Source: an uncultured Bacteroidales bacterium (GTDB lineage: Bacteria > Bacteroidota > Bacteroidia > Bacteroidales > UBA932). From it: a DNA stretch of 34,625 bases. The DNA is taken from NCBI GenBank assembly GCA_944322805.1, contig CALUQC010000065.1, positions 1-34,625 on the forward strand, read 5' to 3'. Shown here piece after piece: positions 3,942 through 34,625 of the stretch. The position numbers were made by a program, and so were the translations under genes. Within the stretch, counting starts at the first letter, position 1. Every line of letters begins with the position of its first letter. The notes below the pieces were generated by a model. That model worked only from the letters and a program-made list of their open reading frames with translations. It made no database searches and was not told the DNA's origin.

Positions 3942-4511
3942 TTATTCGGCTGCGGCCTTGGAGCCGGTGAATGTTACAGTGACAGGAATTTCTGATGAAG
4001 CTGGAGCCGCCATTGTCGCAGTAATATTGAGTGAAAGCGTTATTGCTCCCGTACTTTCAACCGTGCCCGTCATAGTAGCCTTAGCGCTTGCCAATATCGC
4101 CTGGGCCGTAGAACTCAATGTGACGTCGGCAGCTTCGGAGAGGGTAAGGGAATACTTCCCATCGGCTGCGCTGACCGGTACATCAGGGATTGTGATATTT
4201 CCCAACTGCATGCTCGCGATTGAAAAATTGCTGACGGTCAGGTCTACGGTATTTTCTGAGTCTCCCTTTGTAATGCTGATAACCTGATTCTCGATAGGCG
4301 TACCTCCTTCACCAACAGTCAGTGATCCGCTGTAATCGCCTGGAATATCGGCTATGGACCCTATCACATTGCCCTCGCCCCCGGTGTTGCCGCCGTCTCC
4401 CGGATTCTCGACATTGTCGTTGCCGCCATTGTCGGTCTCAGCCTTGTCGCAGGCCGTCATAAGTGCAAATGCTGCAAAAGCCGTTGCAGCCGCATAAATT
4501 ACTCGTCTCAT
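3942..4511 (-). CDS. Calycin-like domain lipoprotein
   Basis: The start at 4511 (MRRVIYAAA...) gives a clean signal peptide ending in lipobox LMTAC, with the Cys about 21 residues in. The longer frame from 4547 adds residues that would spoil it. After an acidic, Gly/Asn-rich linker (DKAETDNGGNDN and following) comes a beta-rich domain starting IPGDYSGSLTVGEGG and containing VISITKGDSENTVDLTVSNFSI. This pattern matches the calycin/lipocalin-like domain (PF13944) of small Bacteroidales lipoproteins; that assignment is from memory. The acidic residues after the lipid Cys resemble the Bacteroidota lipoprotein export signal, suggesting a surface location. A promoter-like box lies just upstream. 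The ligand is unknown. Confidence 0.7.
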   Translation of the reverse strand: MRRVIYAAATAFAAFALMTACDKAETDNGGNDNVENPGDGGNTGGEGNVIGSIADIPGDYSGSLTVGEGGTPIENQVISITKGDSENTVDLTVSNFSIASMQLGNITIPDVPVSAADGKYSLTLSEAADVTLSSTAQAILASAKATMTGTVESTGAITLSLNITATMAAPASSEIPVTVTFTGSKAAAE

Positions 4512-23826: not shown

Positions 23827-24717
23827 ATGAGAGGAAAGGAAGAACAGCGATTCAGACGTATCGACGTAGGAGACCTGTCCGACGTAGTCAACTCCCAGTA
23901 CCTCAACAATTTCTATTTGTTATACGACACCCTGAAAGACATTTTTTTCGAAAAAGGTTCTTCGTTCATTTTTAACGGTTTTTCCATCACCCTGTGCAAA
24001 AAGGGATATTGTTCCATGAAGGTGAGCGGCAGGGATTATACGGCGGAGAAGGATTCCCTCGTGATTCTTTCCCCGAACCAGTTCGTTGAAATCACCGACA
24101 TATCGGAAGATTTCACCCCCGTATCCATCATCGTCTCACTGGATGTCATCCTCGAATTTCCCAGCCCGGTAGACATGGACATCATGTACAATGTCCCGAG
24201 ATATCCTGTCATCGGCCTGTCTCCGGAAAAGCTGGCCCACTTCATGGAATATTACGATTTTATAGAAAAACAGTACAACGAGACGGACAATGCCTACCGG
24301 GAAGAAATCTCCAAGGCACTCCTGTATGCTCTGATGCTGGAAATATGCGATGTGTTCAGATCCGTCACCGGAGATGACAAGGATATCGCCAGGCCGAAGC
24401 CGGAACAGCTGACGGACGATTTCTTCAAGCTGCTGGCAAGGCACTACAAGACCGAACACAATATCGGGTTTTATGCGGACATGCTGAACCGCACCCCGAA
24501 ATATCTGTCCGGCGCCATCAAACGGCTCAGCGGCAGATCCGTATCGGACTGGATAAACTCCACGCTGATAAGTGAAATCAAACTCAGGCTGAAAGTGACG
24601 GACAAGACTGTCCTGGAGATTTCCGAGGAGCTGAATTTTTCCAGCCCCTCTGTCTTTGTGCAGTTTTTCCGGCACCATACCGGCATCACCCCTCTCCAGT
24701 ACCGGAAGCAGGGTTGA
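23827..24717 (+). CDS. AraC-family transcriptional regulator of the glycan locus
   Basis: This is a 296-residue DNA-binding protein. The C-terminal third (about residues 195-293) has the double helix-turn-helix of AraC/XylS proteins, including NIGFYADMLNRTPKYLSGAIKRLSGRSVSDWI and the second-HTH pattern VLEISEELNFSSPSVFVQFFRHHTGITPLQYR. The N-terminal part (GFSITLCKKGYCSMKVSG and following) is predicted to be a cupin-like ligand-sensing domain. It has no signal peptide or transmembrane segment. Position immediately upstream of a GH3 gene and a SusCDE set suggests local control of the locus, in place of the hybrid two-component or ECF systems often found there. The effector is unknown. Confidence 0.9.
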   Translation: MRGKEEQRFRRIDVGDLSDVVNSQYLNNFYLLYDTLKDIFFEKGSSFIFNGFSITLCKKGYCSMKVSGRDYTAEKDSLVILSPNQFVEITDISEDFTPVSIIVSLDVILEFPSPVDMDIMYNVPRYPVIGLSPEKLAHFMEYYDFIEKQYNETDNAYREEISKALLYALMLEICDVFRSVTGDDKDIARPKPEQLTDDFFKLLARHYKTEHNIGFYADMLNRTPKYLSGAIKRLSGRSVSDWINSTLISEIKLRLKVTDKTVLEISEELNFSSPSVFVQFFRHHTGITPLQYRKQG

Positions 24718-24776: not shown

Positions 24777-27296
24777 ATGAAAAAACTGACGATGATTATG
24801 GCAGGCGCCGCGGCGCTGTGCCTTGCTGCCGGAAAAATTTCCGCGCAGGTAACCATCGGCCCGGAAGATGAAAAACGGGCTGAAGAACTCGTGTCCATGA
24901 TGACGCTCGATGAAAAAATCGGGATGCTCGCCGGAGAGAAATCCTTTTATCTGAGAGGTTTGGAACGGCTCGGCATACCGGCGATACGGATAGCCGACGG
25001 ACCGCAGGGAGTGAGGAACAACACCAAAAGCACCCTTTACCCGTGCGGCATCCTGACGGCGGCCGCCTGGAACAGGGATCTTGCCTACCGCATGGGAGCA
25101 AGCCTAGGCACAGATGCCAGGGCCCGCGGGGTGAGCATCATGCTCGGCCCCGGAGTGAACATTTACAGGGCGCCGATGTGCGGCAGAAACTATGAATACA
25201 TGGGCGAGGACCCTTATCTGACATCGGAGACTGCCAAACAATACATTCTCGGCCTCCAGGACCAGGGCGTGATGGCTACCGTAAAGCATTTTGCCGCAAA
25301 CAACCAGTTGGAGCACATACGCCACAGCGTCAGCTCCGACGTGGATGAACGCACTCTCAACGAGATTTATTTCCCTGCATTCAGGAAAGCCGTGGAAGAA
25401 GCCGGCGTGGCTGTCGTGATGGACAGCTACAACCTTGTCTGGGGCGTGCACTCTACTGAAAACCCGTGGATGAACAACGAGGTCCTGAGAGGCCAATGGG
25501 GCTTCAAGGGCATCGTGATGTCCGACTGGACGTCCGTGTATTCGACTTTGGGCGCCATCCGCGGAGGACTGGACATAGAATGCCCCAAGGGCGTTTATCT
25601 GACACCGGAAAAAATCAAGCCTCTGCTTGAGACAGGAGTCATAACCGAAAAGGATATAGATGAAAAAGTGAAGCATATCCTCCAGACATACAGCGCATTC
25701 GGTTTCCTTGAGAAACTTCCTGGAGACGACACCATACCTCTTGACAACGAAGAATCCAGGCAGACTGCCCTCGACATCGCCCGCGAAGGCATCGTACTGC
25801 TTGAGAACAGGGGGCAGCTGCCGTTGAAAGCCGGCTCGAAAGTAGCTGTCCTCGGACCTAACGCCGATGTCATCACCACCGGAGGAGGCAGCGGATTCGT
25901 GTCACCGTATTCGACTGTTTCCGCATACGAGGGCCTGGCAAGCCTGATGGGAAGCGGCAGCGTGATCCTGCTTTCCGACGACCTCCTGTATGAAGACATC
26001 CTTCCGTCCGTATATACAACGGCTGCGGCCGGCAATACGCAAGGGACCTGCCAGGCAGATCCGGACAGTACAGGCTGCGCCGCATCTGCTGAAAAGGTAC
26101 AGGGCTTTACGGCAGACTATTATATCGGGAAAAAGCCGGAAGGCGATATTTTCCGGACCTGCACCGAGACCGATCCTACCCACTACTGGAGCTACGGACA
26201 TCCGTTCGACGGCATGCCTGACGATGGCTTCTCCGTAAGATGGACCGGTACTTACACGGCCGGGGAAAGCGGTACGGTACGCGTCAAGATGGCCGGAGAC
26301 GACGGTTACAGGCTCTATGTCAACGGAAAGCTCCTCGGCGGAGACTGGGGAAACCATTCCCTGACCACCCGTGCAGTATTTTTCGATGTCGAGGCCGGCA
26401 GGAACTATGACCTGAAATTCGAGTTTTATGACAATGCCGGGGAAGCCACGGTAGTGTTCGAGGCTGGCCTTATGAACAGGAAGAAACTCGAAAATACACT
26501 GGCAGAAGTCTCTGACGTGGTTTACTGCGCCGGATTCAACAGCAGTACCGAAGGAGAGGGCTGGGAACGTCCGTTTGCCCTGCCTGATGACCAGATACGC
26601 ATGATTAACCTCGTGTCCTCGATGCATGACAGGGTTTCGGTCGTAGTCAACGCCGGCGGAGGAGTGGATTTCAACGGCTGGTCGGATGATGTCGAATCCG
26701 TGCTTATGGCATGGCATCCGGGACAGGAAGGAGGTACGGCCATTGCCGAGATTCTCACCGGAAAGATCAACCCGAGCGGCAAACTGCCGATATCCATTGA
26801 AAACAAATGGGAAGACAACCCTGTCCACGACAGCTATTATGATGTAAACAGGAGAGTTACCTATACCGAAGGCGTATTCATGGGCTACCGCGGCTATGAC
26901 AGGACAGGCAAGACTCCGAGATATCCTTTCGGCTACGGACTGAGCTATACGGACTTCGAATACTCGAATCTCGAGGTGAAAAAGGCCGGAAAATCCTGGT
27001 CGGTAAGTTTCGATGTGACCAATACCGGCGATGCTGACGGCCTTGAAACGGCCCAGGTCTATGTGTCGGACGTGGAATCTTCGGTACTGAGGCCGAAAAA
27101 GGAGCTGAAAGGGTATGAAAAAGTGTTCATAAGGAAAGGGGAGACTGTGAGGGTCAACGTATTGCTCGACAGGGATGCCTTCTCGTTCTATGATACGGAG
27201 TCGAAGGAGTTCGTTCTCGAGCCGGGTGATTTCATGATAACTGCCGGACCATCGTCTGCAACCCTTCCGTTATCGGTAACGGTCAAGATTCGATGA
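24777..27296 (+). CDS. Secreted GH3 beta-glycosidase with PA14 insert
   Basis: An 839-residue glycoside hydrolase family 3 enzyme follows a signal peptide ending near KISAQ (residue 24). The N-terminal barrel contains RIADGPQGVR, the KHF motif (ATVKHFAANNQ) and the nucleophile Asp250 in VMSDWTS. A PA14 domain (about residues 440-580, with FTADYYIG, FSVRWTGTY and MAGDDGYRLYVNG) is inserted in the second sandwich domain, as in Kluyveromyces-type beta-glucosidases. A fibronectin-III-like domain closes the protein (about 725-835). Such enzymes release terminal beta-linked glucose, xylose or related sugars; the exact sugar is not predictable. No lipobox is seen, so a periplasmic location is likely. 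It is upstream of susC and probably part of the same glycan system. Confidence 0.92.
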   Translation: MKKLTMIMAGAAALCLAAGKISAQVTIGPEDEKRAEELVSMMTLDEKIGMLAGEKSFYLRGLERLGIPAIRIADGPQGVRNNTKSTLYPCGILTAAAWNRDLAYRMGASLGTDARARGVSIMLGPGVNIYRAPMCGRNYEYMGEDPYLTSETAKQYILGLQDQGVMATVKHFAANNQLEHIRHSVSSDVDERTLNEIYFPAFRKAVEEAGVAVVMDSYNLVWGVHSTENPWMNNEVLRGQWGFKGIVMSDWTSVYSTLGAIRGGLDIECPKGVYLTPEKIKPLLETGVITEKDIDEKVKHILQTYSAFGFLEKLPGDDTIPLDNEESRQTALDIAREGIVLLENRGQLPLKAGSKVAVLGPNADVITTGGGSGFVSPYSTVSAYEGLASLMGSGSVILLSDDLLYEDILPSVYTTAAAGNTQGTCQADPDSTGCAASAEKVQGFTADYYIGKKPEGDIFRTCTETDPTHYWSYGHPFDGMPDDGFSVRWTGTYTAGESGTVRVKMAGDDGYRLYVNGKLLGGDWGNHSLTTRAVFFDVEAGRNYDLKFEFYDNAGEATVVFEAGLMNRKKLENTLAEVSDVVYCAGFNSSTEGEGWERPFALPDDQIRMINLVSSMHDRVSVVVNAGGGVDFNGWSDDVESVLMAWHPGQEGGTAIAEILTGKINPSGKLPISIENKWEDNPVHDSYYDVNRRVTYTEGVFMGYRGYDRTGKTPRYPFGYGLSYTDFEYSNLEVKKAGKSWSVSFDVTNTGDADGLETAQVYVSDVESSVLRPKKELKGYEKVFIRKGETVRVNVLLDRDAFSFYDTESKEFVLEPGDFMITAGPSSATLPLSVTVKIR

Positions 27297-27337: not shown

Positions 27338-27345
27338 TATTTTTG
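27338..27345 (+). promoter_or_regulatory. Putative -7 box before the DUF4832-type gene
   Basis: TATTTTTG matches TAnnTTTG exactly, 33 bases before the ATG at 27379. No clear -33 element is present, which could mean dependence on an activator such as the nearby AraC-type protein. Its presence argues against a TTG start at 27343. Confidence 0.45.
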
Positions 27346-27378
27346 CACACTGTGTTCGTGAACAACAATAAGAATCAC

Positions 27379-28974
27379 ATGAAAATATCACAGACAATAA
27401 CTATGATAAAAACTTTGGTTCCCCGACGTTTCCCGGTATTGACACTGCTTTCCATACTGATACTTGCTTCCGGTTGCAAAGGCGGCATCGCCATCCCCGG
27501 GAATACGGAATACGAACTTCCTGCCGATACCGTCCGCGTATTGGACAACCCTCTGAACGGCTGGGTGATGTACCTGAACAGAAACTGGGATGAAACTTTC
27601 TGGGAAAAGCAGGGCTACGACCGGATGCCTGCCGACAGCGGGCGTCTGACCGTCAAAGTTTCGGATTACGCATCGGTAGCGTACCTCAGGACAAGCTGGG
27701 CCGCCATGGAGCCTGAAGAAGGAAAATATTTCTGGAAGGACCCTGACAGCAGGCTGTACCGTCTGCTGGCAAGCGTGCGGGACAGAGGCATGAAGATAGC
27801 GTTCAGAGTGGTGGTGGACGGACGCGACCAGGGCGCAAACACACCGGACTATGTATTCGATGCGGGGGCCGGCTATTATCTTCAGGACCCCGGCAGACCG
27901 GACAGGAAAACGCCTTATCCACAGGACCCGGTTTTCAGAAAATATTACGAGAAATTCATAGAAGCCCTGGCTGCGGAGTTCAACGACCCAGACGTCACGG
28001 CTTTTGTCGACGGCTACGGCTTGGGCAAGTGGGGCGAGGGTCACAATGTCGTCTATGAACCCGGCAACGCCGTCAGTGACAGCACCTCTTATTACAAGGA
28101 GAACACCATGCGCTGGATTACCGGGCTTTACTCCAGGACATTTACGAAGATTCCGCTTGTCATCAATTACCACAGGCACATAGGTGCACCGGTAAGCGAG
28201 GGCCGCCAGGTGGACCCGGACAGCGAACGCCTCCTGCAGATAGCCATTGACAACGGCTACTGTCTCAGGGCCGACTCCTTCGGGATGAACAACCAGGACT
28301 GGGGCTACAACGACTGGGAGCGCTCTTTCGTGAAAAAATGGGCGTACAGGCTTCCTGTCATCATGGAAGGCGGCTGGATAGTGGGACAGCACTCATGGTG
28401 GAATGACCCGGCAGGGTACAAGACCCCGCGTGATGTCCGTATCGGAGAATTCACGACTTCGCAGGAAGAAAAGGTGAACATGATGGATTTCAGGGCCGGC
28501 ACCGAGACGACTTCCTGGTTCAACGATGCTTTCGACTATGTGCAGAAATTCATCTCGGAAGGCGGATACAGGCTCTATCCGTCGGTGGTGACAGCCCCTG
28601 CAGAGATGAAGAACGGAAAAAAATACAGGATAGGCCACAGATGGACCAATCTCGGATGGGGATATTTCCCTGACAACATAAAACAGTGGAACTACAGCCA
28701 TAAGGTAGCCTTTGCCCTTCTCGGCAAGGACGGGAAATGCGTGGCCGAATTCATCGACCGTGACACCGATCCGTCGAAGTGGATAAAAGGTAAAGATACC
28801 GAATATGTTTCGGTTGTCCGTCCGGACAATATCCCTGCCGGACAATACGATCTTGCCGTAGCCATCGTCGACACTTCGGAAGAAGGCAATCCTCCGGCCA
28901 TCGAGCTTTCCTTGGATGAAAGCGTCATCACGTCTGACGGCTGGGCCAAAATAGCGGAAGTAACCGTAAAATAA
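27379..28974 (+). CDS. DUF4832/DUF4874-type putative glycoside hydrolase lipoprotein
   Basis: From ATG 27379 the 531-residue protein has a signal peptide and lipobox (LILASGC), so it is lipid-anchored. A later start, MIKTLV at 27403, is possible. The body begins with LDNPLNGWVMYLNRNW and has RTSWAAMEPEEGKYFW, MKIAFRVVVDG, FVDGYGLGKWGEGH and MEGGWIV, resembling the TIM-barrel DUF4874 plus DUF4832 architecture. The WAAMEPEEG motif is like that of GH-A clan beta-galactosidases. GKWGEGH and MEGGW contain candidate catalytic glutamates, which is inference. The C-terminal beta domain (about 410-531) fits DUF4832. It directly precedes susC (18 bases) and is probably a surface or periplasmic enzyme of the locus. 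Confidence 0.75.
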   Translation: MKISQTITMIKTLVPRRFPVLTLLSILILASGCKGGIAIPGNTEYELPADTVRVLDNPLNGWVMYLNRNWDETFWEKQGYDRMPADSGRLTVKVSDYASVAYLRTSWAAMEPEEGKYFWKDPDSRLYRLLASVRDRGMKIAFRVVVDGRDQGANTPDYVFDAGAGYYLQDPGRPDRKTPYPQDPVFRKYYEKFIEALAAEFNDPDVTAFVDGYGLGKWGEGHNVVYEPGNAVSDSTSYYKENTMRWITGLYSRTFTKIPLVINYHRHIGAPVSEGRQVDPDSERLLQIAIDNGYCLRADSFGMNNQDWGYNDWERSFVKKWAYRLPVIMEGGWIVGQHSWWNDPAGYKTPRDVRIGEFTTSQEEKVNMMDFRAGTETTSWFNDAFDYVQKFISEGGYRLYPSVVTAPAEMKNGKKYRIGHRWTNLGWGYFPDNIKQWNYSHKVAFALLGKDGKCVAEFIDRDTDPSKWIKGKDTEYVSVVRPDNIPAGQYDLAVAIVDTSEEGNPPAIELSLDESVITSDGWAKIAEVTVK

Positions 28975-28992: not shown

Positions 28993-31900
28993 ATGCGAAC
29001 AAATCTAACCACTCGCTTTGCAGGAATTCTTTCTGCAGTATGTGCAACGATGCTTTCCGCATTCGCTGCCTTTGAGGCGACGGCCGCTCCTGCCACGGGG
29101 GGGGGGTACGTTCTATGTCTCTGAAGCACAATCCGACGGTTTAACACTTACGGGAATCGTTTCGGACGATCAGGGCGAGCCCCTTATCGGAGCGTCAGTC
29201 CTGATTAAGGGTACGACTACAGGCTCTATTACCGACGTAGACGGAAGTTTCTCCATAGAGATTCCAGGGCCGGGAGTGACCGTGGAAGTATCCTATATCG
29301 GTTTCATCACACAGGAAATCGTCATTACGGACCAGAGCCGGCTCGATGTCACGCTGCAGCCGGACAACAAACTCCTCGATGAAGTCGTAGTCATCGGCTA
29401 CGGTACGGTCAAAAGAAAAGATCTCACAGGCTCGGTGGCCTCGGTCAGAGGCGACGACATCGCAGCCAAGAAAACCACCACACTTTCCACAGCCCTTCAG
29501 GGTACGCTTTCGGGTGTGCTCGTACAGAGGAACAACAGTGCTCCTGGAGCATCTGCCAGCAGTATCCGTGTACGAGGCGTGACCACCATGGGTACATCCG
29601 ACCCTCTCATCATTGTGGACGGTGTCCAGACCGATGACATCGACTATGTGAACTCGAACGACGTGGAGAGCATCACCGTGCTGAAAGATGCTGCGGCAGC
29701 CTCCATCTACGGATCCAAGGCAGCGGCCGGCGTCATCCTCATCACTACCAAACGTGGCTCCAAAACGGACCTCAGCATCACATACAACGGTGAATTCGGC
29801 TGGGAAATCCCTACCGAGCAGCCTGAGATGGTCGGCCTGACGAGATATTTGGAGATGTCGAACGAGCTTGCATACAACGACAACAACTCGCTCGGATTCT
29901 ATTCCCAGTATACTGCGGACCAGGTGAAGAACTGGGTGGCGAACAATGCTGCTGACCCGGACAATTATCCTATCACTGACTGGAATTCCCTGATTCTCAA
30001 GAATTCCGCTCCAAGGACCACGCATACCGTCACGGTAAGCGGCGGAAACGATGCGGTCAGGTCATCCGTATCTCTTGCCTACGATGAAGTGAGCGCCCTG
30101 TATGACGGCCGCAAGTTCCAGCGCTACATGCTCCGCGCGAACAACGACTTCACCATCATCAAGGATTACCTTTTCGCTACTTTGGACATCAATGTCCGCA
30201 GGGCCAAGAACAAGAGGCCGGTGTACGACCCGTTCGACGAACTCCGCAAGATACCTGCCATCTATCCGGCAGTATGGGAAAACGGAGCCATAGCATCAGG
30301 AAAACAGGGAGCCAACCCTTACGGACTTATCCACAACAGCGGAACCAACACCTCCTGGAGCACCCAGATAGGCGGAAAGGCATCTATCGAACTCCGTCCG
30401 GTAAAGGGACTCAGCATCCAGGCCATCATCGCTCCGTTCATAAACTATACGAAGTCAAAGCAGTTCAAGCTCGCAGCCAACTATTATTCCATGGATGACC
30501 CGACACTCGTCGTAGGTCCTCTCGAGGGCGGCGGTACGTCCTATACCACTACTTCCCTGAGCGAGACCAGGAATGACAACTATCACGTCACTTCCCAGGT
30601 CATCGCCAACTATATGAAGACGTTCAAGGAAAAACATAACCTGAACGTGATGGCCGGTTACGAGAACTACGTGATGAAAAGCGAAAACCTCACCGCAGGC
30701 CGCGACTATTACGACCTGACGAGCTATCCGTACCTGAATGTGGGACCGGAAGACTATCAGAGCAACAGCGGTACCGCATCCGAATATACCTCGAACTCGT
30801 TCTTCGCCCGCGTGATGTACGACTACGACGGAAGATATCTGGTTCAGGCCAATGTCCGCGAAGATGCCTCTTCAAGATTTGCGCGCAACTACCGCTGGGG
30901 TACCTTCCCTTCCTTCTCGGCAGGCTGGGTCATCAGCGAAGAGCCTTGGATGCAGTCCACGAAAAACTGGCTGTCATTCCTGAAACTGAGGGCTTCCTGG
31001 GGTATGCTCGGAAACGAGCGTATCGGAAGCAACTACTTCCCTTACATGGCTCTGGTCAGCTTCGACGATGCCATTTTCTATGACACTCCGGAAGACGGTA
31101 CGGTAGTATCCGACAAGACGTCGGTAATGAACGACCTCGCCGTCGAGGACATCACCTGGGAGACCACCACATCTACCGACATAGGTCTCGACCTGAGTTT
31201 CTTCAACCAGCGTCTGAGCGCCACGTTCGACTGGTACTGGAAAACTACGGATGACATGCTTCTGGGCATCAATATCCCTTACATAATGGGATATGACAAC
31301 CCGTCCACCAATGCCGGTACAATGGCTACGCAGGGGTTCGACCTCGAACTCGGATGGAATGACAGGGTAGGGGACTTTACTTACAACATTTCAGTAAACC
31401 TCTCCGATTTCCAGTCTAAGATAGTCCAGATAAACGGTACTGAAATCATCAAGGACGGCAAGATCCATCGCGAGGGTACATATTTCAACGAATGGTACGG
31501 CTACATCTGTGACGGCATATTCCAGACTCAGGAAGAACTGGACAATTCGGCGAAACTGGCCGGCGCGAAAGTCGGAGACCTGAAATACCGCGACATCAGC
31601 GGCCCGGACGGTGTGCCTGACGGACAGATCAACGCAGAGTACGACCGGGTGCCTCTCGGAAACTCCCTCCCTCGCTTCCAGTACGGCGGACAGTTCTCCT
31701 GTGCATGGAAAGGCATAGATTTCTCCCTTGCCTTCCAGGGTATCGGGCATCAGAACTCCTATATGTACAGGGAGATGGTCGAGCCGTTCCGTGACAACTA
31801 CGGCGGATTCCCGGCCATGCTCGACGGACACTACTGGAGCGTATTCAACACCGCAGAGGAAAATGCGAATGCGGAGTTCCCGAGACTGTCGACCACCAGC

Positions 31901-32155
31901 AAGAACAACAACTATACTACCTCCGATTTCTGGCTTTTCAACGGCGCATATTTCCGTCTTAAAAATGTCACCATCGGATATACCTTCCCTGAGAAATGGA
32001 TGTCGAAGGCGAGAATCAAGAATCTTCGTATCTACGCTACCGCCAACGACCTGTTCTCTATCGACAATTTCCCTATGGGCTGGGACCCTGAGATGGGCGT
32101 GACTTCCTATCCTATCACCAAGTCCGTACTCGTGGGACTTTCCATCAAATTTTAA
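28993..32155 (+). CDS. SusC-family TonB-dependent receptor, frameshifted at a G10 tract
   Basis: The ATG at 28993 opens a signal peptide (MRTNLTTRFAGILS..., ending near EATAAPA) that runs into ten consecutive G (29097-29106) and stops at 29122. The receptor continues in the +1 frame from the G tract: a carboxypeptidase-D-like domain (LTGIVSDDQGEPLIGASV), the LLDEVVVIGYGTVKRKDLTGSV junction, a plug with SSIRVRGVTTMG and DAAAASIYGSKAAAGVI, and a beta-barrel ending SVLVGLSIKF. The TTG at 29018 in that frame only reads the signal region out of frame. With nine G the two halves would fuse through a three-Gly linker into one receptor of about 1053 residues. As sequenced the gene is off or mis-read. 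SusC proteins import glycans through the outer membrane with SusD, which follows. Confidence 0.88.
29097..29106 (+). repeat. Homopolymer (G)10 in susC
   Basis: Ten G lie directly after the signal-peptide coding sequence. Length sets the reading frame: 9 or 12 joins signal peptide and receptor, 10 does not. It encodes a glycine linker, tolerant of changes by three. It is the longest G/C homopolymer noticed in the window. Confidence 0.8.
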
Positions 32156-32167
32156 AGGAGAAACGCA

Positions 32168-33916
32168 ATGAAAAAAATATTTATACCTCTGTTCTGCATC
32201 CTTGCCCCGGCACTCGTATCCTGCGTGTCCATGGATATCACGCCTAAGGCGCAGGGTAACAGCGAATCCTGGTACAGTACCGAACTCGAACTCGAGATGG
32301 CGGCAAACAGACTGTACACCATCGGCTACTGGGACAGCCCTTATCAGGACCCGGAGACCTGGTCGGACAACTTCACATACAGGGACATCAACTGGCACCG
32401 TGACAGCGGGGCCCCGCTGAACGGGAATCTTGACGGGAACACCTATATCACATACAATATCTGGCAGCAGGACTATAAGCTGATAGCCCAGGCAAACTTG
32501 ATTCTGACGTACAGCGGCAGGGCAAAGGCAAACGGCGTGGCCGAGGACATCATCAACCAGTACCGTGCCGAGGCTTATTTTGCAAGGGCCTGCAAATATG
32601 CCGAACTCATCGCCTACTTCGGAGATGTGCCATATGTCGACAAGCCTTTGACCATAGACGAGGCCGAAGCTATGGAACGCATGCCGAAAGACCAGCTCAT
32701 ACCGTTGGTCTACAGTGATTTCGATCATGCAATCGATACTCTTCCCGTCTCCTATACCGGCACACAGCGTTTCACCAAGGGTGCCGCAATGGCCATGAAG
32801 GCCCGTTTCGCCCTTTATATGGAGGACTGGGAGACTGTGGTGGAGGCTACCGAGGCCTGCATGGGACTTGACATATACTCCCTCAATGCTGATTTCGGAG
32901 ATATTTTTCTCATGACGACAAAGCAGATTCCTGAAAAGATATTCGTAATACCGAGACTGGCTACCAGCGGTGTAAAGGTGCCTCAGTGGTTTGTCCAGAA
33001 CGGAGTTCCCCGTAACGCCGGCGGATACGGCTCCGACACCCCGTCCTGGGACCTGTTCGCCAGCTTCCTCTGTACGGACGGCAAGCCTATCGACGAATCC
33101 GACCTGTTCGACCCGAAGAATCCTTTCGACAACAGGGACCCTCGTCTGGCAGAGACTATCGTACCTTTCGGCTCTCTTCACTGCGGCTGGTATTTCGAGC
33201 CGGACAACAAGACTGCCACTGCCGCAGACGGTACTACCAAGTCGAATCAGGACTGCAGGCTCAACCAGCAATACACTTCATATAACGGTCTGATGTGGAA
33301 AAAAGGCATCGATGACTCGTGGTTGGTCGGCACGAGCTGGAACCAGGATGCTGAGAACGACCTGATAATCATGCGCTATGCCGACATCCTCCTGATGAAT
33401 GCCGAGGCGAAGATCCAGCTCGGGACTGCAAGCCAGGACGTATTCGACCAGACTATCAATGCAGTACGTGCGAGAGCGTACGGGGTCACCGCTGCCGACA
33501 AGTCCATGTATCCTGCAGTGACATATTCGTCTGACAAGACTGCTAACATGCGTGCCCTACAGACAGAAAGGCGTATGGAGACGGCCAAGGAAAGCCTCAG
33601 ATACCTCGATGTCATCAGATGGGGACTTTACAAGAAGGCTTTCAACGGGTACAACTATCTGCTCCCGGACAACACCGCTCTTGAAAACCATATCAACACG
33701 AACAATTCAAATGACCCTGATAGCGACGGCTGGTTCTGGGGAGACCATGTCCCTGAAATAGACGAGGACGGCATTGCGGACTTTTCCGGACTGCTCAGCG
33801 CGGGTTATGCACGTACAGGTGCGCAGAGGATTTTCCCTGACCATCAGGTGCTTTTCCCGATTCCTACCTACGACAGGACACTGATGCCTAACCTCAGCCA
33901 GAACGAGGGATACTAA
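32168..33916 (+). CDS. SusD/RagB-family glycan-binding lipoprotein
   Basis: This 582-residue lipoprotein (lipobox ALVSC, Cys at residue 19) belongs to the RagB/SusD family, which forms a lid on the SusC channel and binds glycan at the cell surface. The DITPKAQ segment after the Cys, the helical TPR-like repeats (for example YRAEAYFARACKYAELIAYFG) and the C-terminal pattern NAVRARAYG...TERRMETAKESLRYLDVIRWG with a final FPIPTYDR are typical. It starts 12 bases after the susC stop, the standard susCD arrangement. Binding specificity cannot be read from sequence. Confidence 0.95.
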   Translation: MKKIFIPLFCILAPALVSCVSMDITPKAQGNSESWYSTELELEMAANRLYTIGYWDSPYQDPETWSDNFTYRDINWHRDSGAPLNGNLDGNTYITYNIWQQDYKLIAQANLILTYSGRAKANGVAEDIINQYRAEAYFARACKYAELIAYFGDVPYVDKPLTIDEAEAMERMPKDQLIPLVYSDFDHAIDTLPVSYTGTQRFTKGAAMAMKARFALYMEDWETVVEATEACMGLDIYSLNADFGDIFLMTTKQIPEKIFVIPRLATSGVKVPQWFVQNGVPRNAGGYGSDTPSWDLFASFLCTDGKPIDESDLFDPKNPFDNRDPRLAETIVPFGSLHCGWYFEPDNKTATAADGTTKSNQDCRLNQQYTSYNGLMWKKGIDDSWLVGTSWNQDAENDLIIMRYADILLMNAEAKIQLGTASQDVFDQTINAVRARAYGVTAADKSMYPAVTYSSDKTANMRALQTERRMETAKESLRYLDVIRWGLYKKAFNGYNYLLPDNTALENHINTNNSNDPDSDGWFWGDHVPEIDEDGIADFSGLLSAGYARTGAQRIFPDHQVLFPIPTYDRTLMPNLSQNEGY

Positions 33917-33937: not shown

Positions 33938-34625
33938 ATGAAAAATTCCATTATGAAATATGCTGCAGCTTTCGCTGCAATGTCGGGGCTGCTCCTGGCG
34001 GGATGTACCGAGGAAGTGGACAATGCCTACTCCCGTTTCCCGTCCACCATAAACATCACGGCCTCGGCCGGGGAGATAGTCCTCGACGAGGACACTCCTG
34101 ACGAAGTCGCCCTTACCGTCTCATGGACACCTGCGGCGGACCACGGGGATTCATATATCATAGACTATGAATATGCCTATACCCTGAGTGAGAATTCGGA
34201 CGTCACCGAGTCGGAAGAAGTATTCGAAGGTGAGGAATTCGTACGTGAATACACCCATAAGGAGCTTCAGGACATTCTGATGAATACCTTCGGATACAAG
34301 ACCAGTACATGGGGCAGCCTGATTTTCTCCGTATCTGCATCATATACCAGAAATAGCGAGAGCGATGCCATGGTCCCTCCTGATGAGGCCAGCGTGACGG
34401 TCCGGGTGAAGACATACGGAGCCAAACAGTTCGCTGCAGACCGGGTATTCATGGGTGGAGAAGCTGTCGGATCGGAAAACATCGAACTGACTCCGAGTGA
34501 GACCAACCCTTCCCTCTATGTCTACAACGGAAACCTTTCCGCAGGCGGATTCAACTTCCCTGTTGAGTATGGTGACGAGAATAATGTCATCATTCCTGCA
34601 GGCTCGGCCGACGTTACTGTCGAAA
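33938..34625 (+). CDS. SusE-like outer-membrane lipoprotein, 3' truncated by window edge
   Basis: This open frame of 229 codons runs off the window end. The N-terminus is a lipoprotein signal (MKNSIMKYAAAFAAMSG, lipobox LLAGC). It is followed by TEEVDN, whose acidic residues after the lipidated Cys fit a surface-export signal. The next part, INITASAGEIVLDEDTPDEVALTVSWTPAADHG, has the VLDE...VALTVSW pattern of the SusE N-terminal domain. It follows susD by 21 bases. SusE/SusF-type proteins bind starch or other glycans at the surface through beta-sandwich domains; here the family position is clear but the ligand is not. Confidence 0.8.
   Translation, partial: MKNSIMKYAAAFAAMSGLLLAGCTEEVDNAYSRFPSTINITASAGEIVLDEDTPDEVALTVSWTPAADHGDSYIIDYEYAYTLSENSDVTESEEVFEGEEFVREYTHKELQDILMNTFGYKTSTWGSLIFSVSASYTRNSESDAMVPPDEASVTVRVKTYGAKQFAADRVFMGGEAVGSENIELTPSETNPSLYVYNGNLSAGGFNFPVEYGDENNVIIPAGSADVTVE

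Follow-up and report, generated by a model that had tools for sequence, protein, structure and literature searches.

Organization of the locus

The window, by which we mean the whole 34,625-nucleotide stretch of DNA analyzed here, comes from an uncultured Bacteroidales bacterium and carries a sugar-uptake locus of ordinary make. Its features are as follows.

23827..24717, + strand: AraC-type regulator gene heading the locus (Pfam HTH_18, HTH_AraC)
24777..27296, + strand: glycoside hydrolase family 3 gene (Pfam Glyco_hydro_3, Glyco_hydro_3_C, PA14, Fn3-like)
27343..28974, + strand: gene upstream of susC, with a weak match to Pfam DUF4832 (E = 5.2e-6, below the curated cut-off)
28993..29124, + strand: susC start codon and signal-peptide frame; in the 10-G allele, a stop follows after 43 codons (OFF)
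29097..29106, + strand: run of ten G at which slippage is proposed; the same place in five other species holds 8, 9 or 10 G
29107..32155, + strand: SusC body, in a second frame and intact to its stop; dN/dS of 0.07-0.12 versus six orthologs
32168..33916, + strand: susD-like gene (Pfam SusD_RagB, SusD-like_3)
33938..34624, + strand: susE-like gene (Pfam SusE), cut by the contig end

The body of the window SusC is an above-cut-off member of its family, scoring 949 bits against TIGR04056 (family cut-off 368.25), and contains the Pfam CarboxypepD_reg-like (about 29150-29392), Plug (about 29414-29734), and TonB-dependent beta-barrel domains in succession. As expected of a SusC-family gene, it is adjoined by its susD partner, after which comes susE. 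From body-frame residue 37-47 to the end, the protein matches SusC homologs of solved structure, namely, 8aa4 (E = 1e-125), 5t3r (E = 1.2e-118), and RagA 6sli (E = 3.8e-77); the likeness is one of protein, and these structures carry no information on the G run.

A ten-G tract separates the signal peptide from the SusC body

The tract is the single G/C run of at least eight bases in the window. From the ATG at 28993, the frame reads MRTNLTTRFAGILSAVCATMLSAFAAFEATAAPAT-GGG-YVLCL-stop, giving a product of 43 residues with the stop at codon 44. The signal-peptide-like part of this product, which was assigned by eye from its hydrophobic core and AAP end, finishes in AAPAT and is followed by Gly-Gly-Gly, five further residues, and the stop. 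A first-pass annotation of this DNA had placed the signal peptide and the SusC body in different frames across the tract and had proposed that one G fewer would join them. Both claims were confirmed, the first by the stop in the frame from ATG 28993 and the second by a start-to-body distance of 1 mod 3, because of which nine or twelve G would be in frame. The signal peptide is thus out of frame with the body in the 10-G consensus of the window, and it is in frame in three orthologs. Since the tract precedes the functional domains, a change in its length shifts the frame ahead of all of them, although changes by three should be harmless, given the tract's position in a tolerant linker directly behind the cleavage region.

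The tract is kept at the same place in related species with differing lengths

Orthologs were collected by protein search of 200 genomes of the same genus together with a named genome collection, in which G134, G182, G127, and G204 are equivalent to CALUQM, CALUPB, CASFLY, and CASEOO, respectively (an 800-base stretch was identical for each pair). The close set comprises seven species including that of the window, at 79-87% identity, each represented by one genome from a separate assembly. In six of the seven, the window included, a G run was found at the same place. It measures 10 bases in the window, 9 in G134, 10 in G127, 10 in G204, 8 in CALUQB, and 10 in CALUUA, and the start-to-body offsets within this gene family are 1, 0, 1, 0, 2, and 0 mod 3. 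Accordingly, the genes of G134, G204, and CALUUA are in frame (ON) and those of the window, G127, and CALUQB are out of frame (OFF), with two different out-of-frame offsets. The length thus varies between species over 8, 9, and 10 G, with three ON and three OFF alleles among six otherwise intact genes. This comparison of homologous susC genes had been proposed with the first-pass annotation, under which relatives uniformly showing a non-repetitive sequence of constant length would have spoken against a switch. Such uniformity was not found; yet G182, at 86% identity, has plain sequence at the tract position, and the run is also absent from a 73% identical homolog (L081) and, among the 45 best matches examined, from almost every more distantly related SusC.

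Among those 45 matches and their follow-up, the exceptions with a run were L074 and L079. The first is a SusC with nine G between its STN-like and CarboxypepD_reg-like parts, in frame. The second, a SusC from Candidatus Limisoma faecipullorum, has eight G where the signal peptide ends (position 4057), also in frame.

In short-read assemblies, no feature is less certain than the length of a homopolymer. The tract might therefore be real and its length in the window be wrong by one base through a slip of sequencing or assembly, in which case the gene would simply be ON in this species. Poly-G artefacts do occur in the collection, as in the first ~55 bases of contig C57 of G018, which are nearly all G. 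However, the window run lies inside a coding sequence, 29 kb into its contig, and recurs in five species with separate assemblies; a one-base error cannot create a run of 9-10 bases, and the alleles of G127 and CALUQB are out of frame too. We consider an erroneous window length unlikely, and it would concern the present state of the gene alone, leaving the proposed switch untouched. As the whole explanation, a simple homopolymer error was rejected because the run recurs across separate assemblies.

The flanks of the run have diverged at many positions on both sides among the close species. Over the SusC bodies of the seven close orthologs, dS is about 1 to 2, with synonymous sites near saturation, and dN/dS is 0.03-0.12, a range that holds also for a pair of out-of-frame alleles, indicating purifying selection. 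From these values, it follows that the run has outlived synonymous saturation and that the OFF bodies are not decaying. These data bear on whether the frameshift could be an ordinary inactivating mutation in a gene that is no longer needed. The consensus as it stands cannot make an exported SusC, as a decaying gene would predict, but the body is intact over more than 1000 codons, dN/dS is 0.07-0.12 against all six orthologs, and three of these orthologs are in frame. Moreover, the automatic rule for start-proximal runs (described below) finds six out-of-frame genes in the window's genome, and in each the frame beyond the run stays open for at least 100 codons. Gene decay is accordingly very improbable, and the pseudogene was rejected as a whole explanation on account of the intact, constrained body.

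Selection at the protein level for a glycine linker could also account for a run at this site, since every frame of a G run reads Gly-Gly-Gly. Codon choice argues against it: by hand count, GGG makes up 17 of the 18 Gly codons in the six tracts versus 35 of the 620 (6%) in the seven SusC bodies, a bias with a binomial probability of ~1e-20 if the codons were independent, which those of related species are not. Only three of the six alleles are in frame, and G182 does without the linker. A run that merely encodes a linker is scarcely credible, and the GGG bias and out-of-frame alleles led us to reject it as the whole explanation.

Long G runs are in excess in the window's genome and recur at SusC signal peptides

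Against dinucleotide shuffles of the window, the run by itself is unremarkable: 2.0 G8 matches were expected and 3 seen, a number reached in 30 of 100 shuffles. As this null ignores coding constraint, run-length decay and comparison between genomes were used instead. The window's genome (G000, an assembly 87% complete) holds 22 distinct G/C runs of at least 9. In 352,119 of its bases, a sample of 20 stretches (selected for size or taken from earlier lists, some with known runs), we counted 218 G/C runs of at least 5, 15 of at least 6, none of exactly 7 or 8, and 2 of at least 9. The window and 29 SusC loci (203,752 bases) gave 65 of at least 5, 11 of at least 6, none of 7, one of 8, and 6 of at least 9. 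Extrapolated from the 352-kb sample, a run-length decay of 0.07 to 0.19 per base predicts 0.03-1.9 runs of at least 9 in the whole genome versus the 22 observed, and tracts of this length are thus in excess of chance genome-wide. A/T runs in the same sample drop gradually (56 of 7, 7 of 8, and 6 of at least 9), and an A9 search of the genome returned 30 match positions, or about 20 distinct runs. The excess over decay is therefore a property of G/C runs.

SusC genes in the genome numbered 50 matches, 46 of which were examined; C109, C50, C39, and C13:9577 were dropped for a missing N-terminal part, and the 46 include one whose start lies off its contig (L128) and three that begin at profile positions 84-95. 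A search of the genome's other susC genes for similar G runs in this position had been suggested with the first-pass annotation, and such runs exist: at least 8 G were found in the signal-peptide region of 6 of the 46 5' ends. Named by contig, the states are 10 OFF for C65 (the window) and C125, 9 OFF for C129, 9 ON for C66, and 8 OFF for C26. The sixth, C31, has 9 G before the hydrophobic core and is OFF with its assumed start; at 338 nt ahead of the first domain, this run falls outside the 250-nt stretch used for the location count. Within that stretch, runs of at least 9 G precede the first domain in 4 of 46 SusC genes versus 0.054 expected (P ~3e-7 for the four, ~3e-5 for three with the window omitted). 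C runs of at least 6 were absent from the scanned 5' stretches of all 46.

Runs also occur in other kinds of genes of this genome. Two lipoprotein-like genes, L014 and L028 (the latter with BACON domains), carry theirs just after a putative lipobox Cys, out of frame, and a third, L019, before the hydrophobic core, in frame; further runs lie within DUF3575 and DUF6377 genes.

The longest run found in the genome is one of 14 G at the start of region 4 of an ECF-type sigma factor gene (L024, C140:3362-3375, minus strand), out of frame with the apparent rest of region 4. Three two-component regulator propeller-repeat genes (L020, L025, and L026, on C119, C151, and C163) have in-frame 9-G runs far from their starts. 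A 10-G run at C169:2619-2628 (L027) is apparently intergenic, 135 nt before the ATG of a gene judged glycosyltransferase-like by eye, and could act on transcription. Finally, contigs C73 (L011) and C89 (L016) share their first 218 bases apart from the length of a C run, 11 in the one and 10 in the other; the match covers 117 bases ahead of this run and 90 bases beyond it. The two contig ends are probably copies of a repeated element, and their length difference is a possible trace of slippage, or of error, within one genome.

Further gene groups and the wider clade

Four further gene groups keep a run at the same site in different species with differing length. In an STN-like SusC (domain assigned by eye), the run at the signal-peptide end measures 8 in the window's own genome (OFF), 10 in G127 (ON), and 11 in G204 (OFF). 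Two SusC groups have it inside the first domain, with 9 bases in G127 and 10 in G204 for one and 9 in G134 and 10 in G204 for the other. A lipoprotein-like group has 9 in the own genome and 10 in G127.

For the clade as a whole, we read all 30 listed runs of G204, all 14 of G134, eleven of G127, part of those of G018 and G182, and 20 from three genomes of other families. By an automatic rule applied to three genomes, 17 of 66 runs were start-proximal G on the coding strand versus 2 of 66 start-proximal C (binomial P = 0.0007), the G runs being distributed as 8 of 22 in the own genome, 5 of 30 in G204, and 4 of 14 in G134; this rule missed L004, L019, and L028, which are start-proximal by eye. 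In the genomes of other families, 1 G versus 2 C of the 20 runs were start-proximal, 9 of the 20 lay under no stop-free stretch of 100 codons, and none of the 20 was at the signal-peptide end of a SusC. With a Fisher P of 0.06 for 17 of 66 versus 1 of 20, the difference between the clade and other families is suggestive only. The trait is uneven within the genus as well, since G9 match positions over 36 same-genus relatives range from 0 (eight genomes) to 54 (G018), with 35 in the window's genome. Much of the G018 count stems from its contig C57, where positions 1-55 look like a sequencing artefact.

Loss of mismatch repair was considered as a cause of the runs. All nine genomes examined contain MutL, and eight of them a strong MutS. 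The exception is the window's genome, with only a weaker MutS-domain match (E 4.8e-29), which may reflect a gap in its incomplete assembly. Because both genes are present in most genomes, slippage would have to act despite mismatch repair.

Apparent gain or exchange of the run, and a C-run counterpart

The SusC on contig C125 of the window's genome (L109/L022) has a signal-peptide type and a run related to those of the window gene. Its seven orthologs in other species (L265-L271, 73-87% identity) have different signal peptides and no run. Since C125 has the unit of signal peptide and run and these orthologs lack it, the unit seems to have been gained or exchanged between SusC genes.

A different, related SusC has a C7-C8 run at its signal-peptide end in four species (L272, L273, L274, and L275, from G102, G077, G099, and G092), where 73-82 nt separate it from the first SusC domain. 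The four share one out-of-frame offset, and their 991-residue bodies are intact. The species are close, at 88-98% identity to one of them, and the run is absent from the next relative (L276, 72%) and 13 further relatives. On their sequences, these four genes would be either all OFF or subject to programmed frameshifting.

The four C-run genes, with their shared offset and intact bodies, make the best case for programmed slippage by RNA polymerase or the ribosome, whereby the DNA length could stay constant and an out-of-frame gene would still make a fixed share of full-length protein. However, the offset is not conserved in the window gene family, the STN-like group has one of its three genes in frame, and the C-run species are close relatives that may represent one or two events. 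For the window gene, programmed slippage is in our judgment quite improbable.

Discussion

From the mixed offsets, the intact bodies, the tract kept between diverged flanks, and its recurrence at the same structural position, we infer a contingency locus. The G run of the window is very probably a slipped-strand phase-variation tract that switches susC on and off and is OFF in the window consensus. Such a switch is probable because the tract has been retained in this position by related gut bacteria while its length varies, some alleles being in frame and others not. The phase-variable importer put forward in the first-pass annotation is thereby supported at the level of sequence, by the mixed-frame tract in orthologs and by similar runs in SusC genes of the same genome. 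In the best reading of these genomes, the window tract would be one of a set on SusC transporters and other surface proteins in an uncultured Bacteroidales group. We lean modestly toward a broader view, in which a genome-wide poly-G phasome targets mainly the junction of SusC signal peptide and body, each cell carries a random set of importers, and the unit is gained, lost, or exchanged.

Several observations weigh against a contingency tract. The run is lacking in G182, in nearly all distant SusC, and in the seven C125 orthologs, and eight of 36 same-genus relatives have no run of at least 9 G. Slippage must occur in the presence of mismatch repair genes, and the single out-of-frame offset shared by the four C-run SusC fits programmed slippage equally.

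If the tract is a switch, replication slippage would gain or lose single Gs within a strain, as the variation seen between species suggests. In the ON state, with 9 or 12 G, the signal peptide would be joined to SusC through a short Gly linker and the protein exported to the outer membrane; in the OFF state, with 10 G, the cell would make the 43-residue peptide and no exported transporter. A population would then be mixed, with only some cells importing the glycan of the SusC/SusD/SusE-GH3 locus or exposing the receptor to phage or host. The benefit might lie in diet, phage, or host pressure.

The outer-membrane receptors HmbR and HpuAB of Neisseria are phase-variable through poly-G tracts. 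Homopolymer switching of surface genes, poly-G included, is established in Neisseria, Campylobacter, and Helicobacter according to excerpts of three papers (PMC3786947, PMC8355987, PMC2823697). As in the HmbR/HpuAB, Campylobacter, and Helicobacter sets, the tracts described here place a homopolymer within the reading frame of a surface-protein gene, where its length sets the frame, and affect many genes per genome. In contrast to those systems, where switching was measured, switching here is deduced from sequence. The bacteria, an uncultured group, also belong to another phylum, and the targets observed are genes for SusC glycan transporters and lipoprotein-like genes.

SusC/SusD systems set the glycan diet of gut Bacteroidales and are candidate phage receptors, and DNA inversion is, to our knowledge, the only kind of stochastic control of these systems. 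Ornithobacterium hominis, considered below, is a member of the same phylum. In Bacteroides fragilis, SusC/SusD phase variation by DNA inversion is described (Nakayama-Imaohji 2009, as cited in PMC11868660), and the excerpt of the citing paper names inversion as the phase variation of Bacteroides. The proposed switch resembles the B. fragilis system, as excerpted there, in its stochastic switching of SusC/SusD expression; that system uses invertible DNA and an invertase, whereas the window has a homopolymer run inside a coding sequence. For B. fragilis capsule loci, an excerpt reports a frameshift in a run of four Cs with slippage suggested as a possible cause (PMC3090145), which among the excerpts is the nearest printed suggestion of slippage found in the order. 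A putative phase-variation mechanism is mentioned for O. hominis adhesins in an excerpt of PMC13183296. Poly-G switching is thus known elsewhere; for SusC, the titles and abstract openings among the open-licence matches listed describe no homopolymer or slippage switching, and the open-licence literature returned nothing on Cryptobacteroides together with phase variation.

Genome-wide searches for phase variation in gut bacteria mostly target inversions. A slippage switch within a coding sequence would escape such searches, and annotation would tend to label its out-of-frame copies pseudogenes. If the proposed switch is true, variation in nutrient uptake within a clone would be readable directly from homopolymer lengths in metagenome reads.
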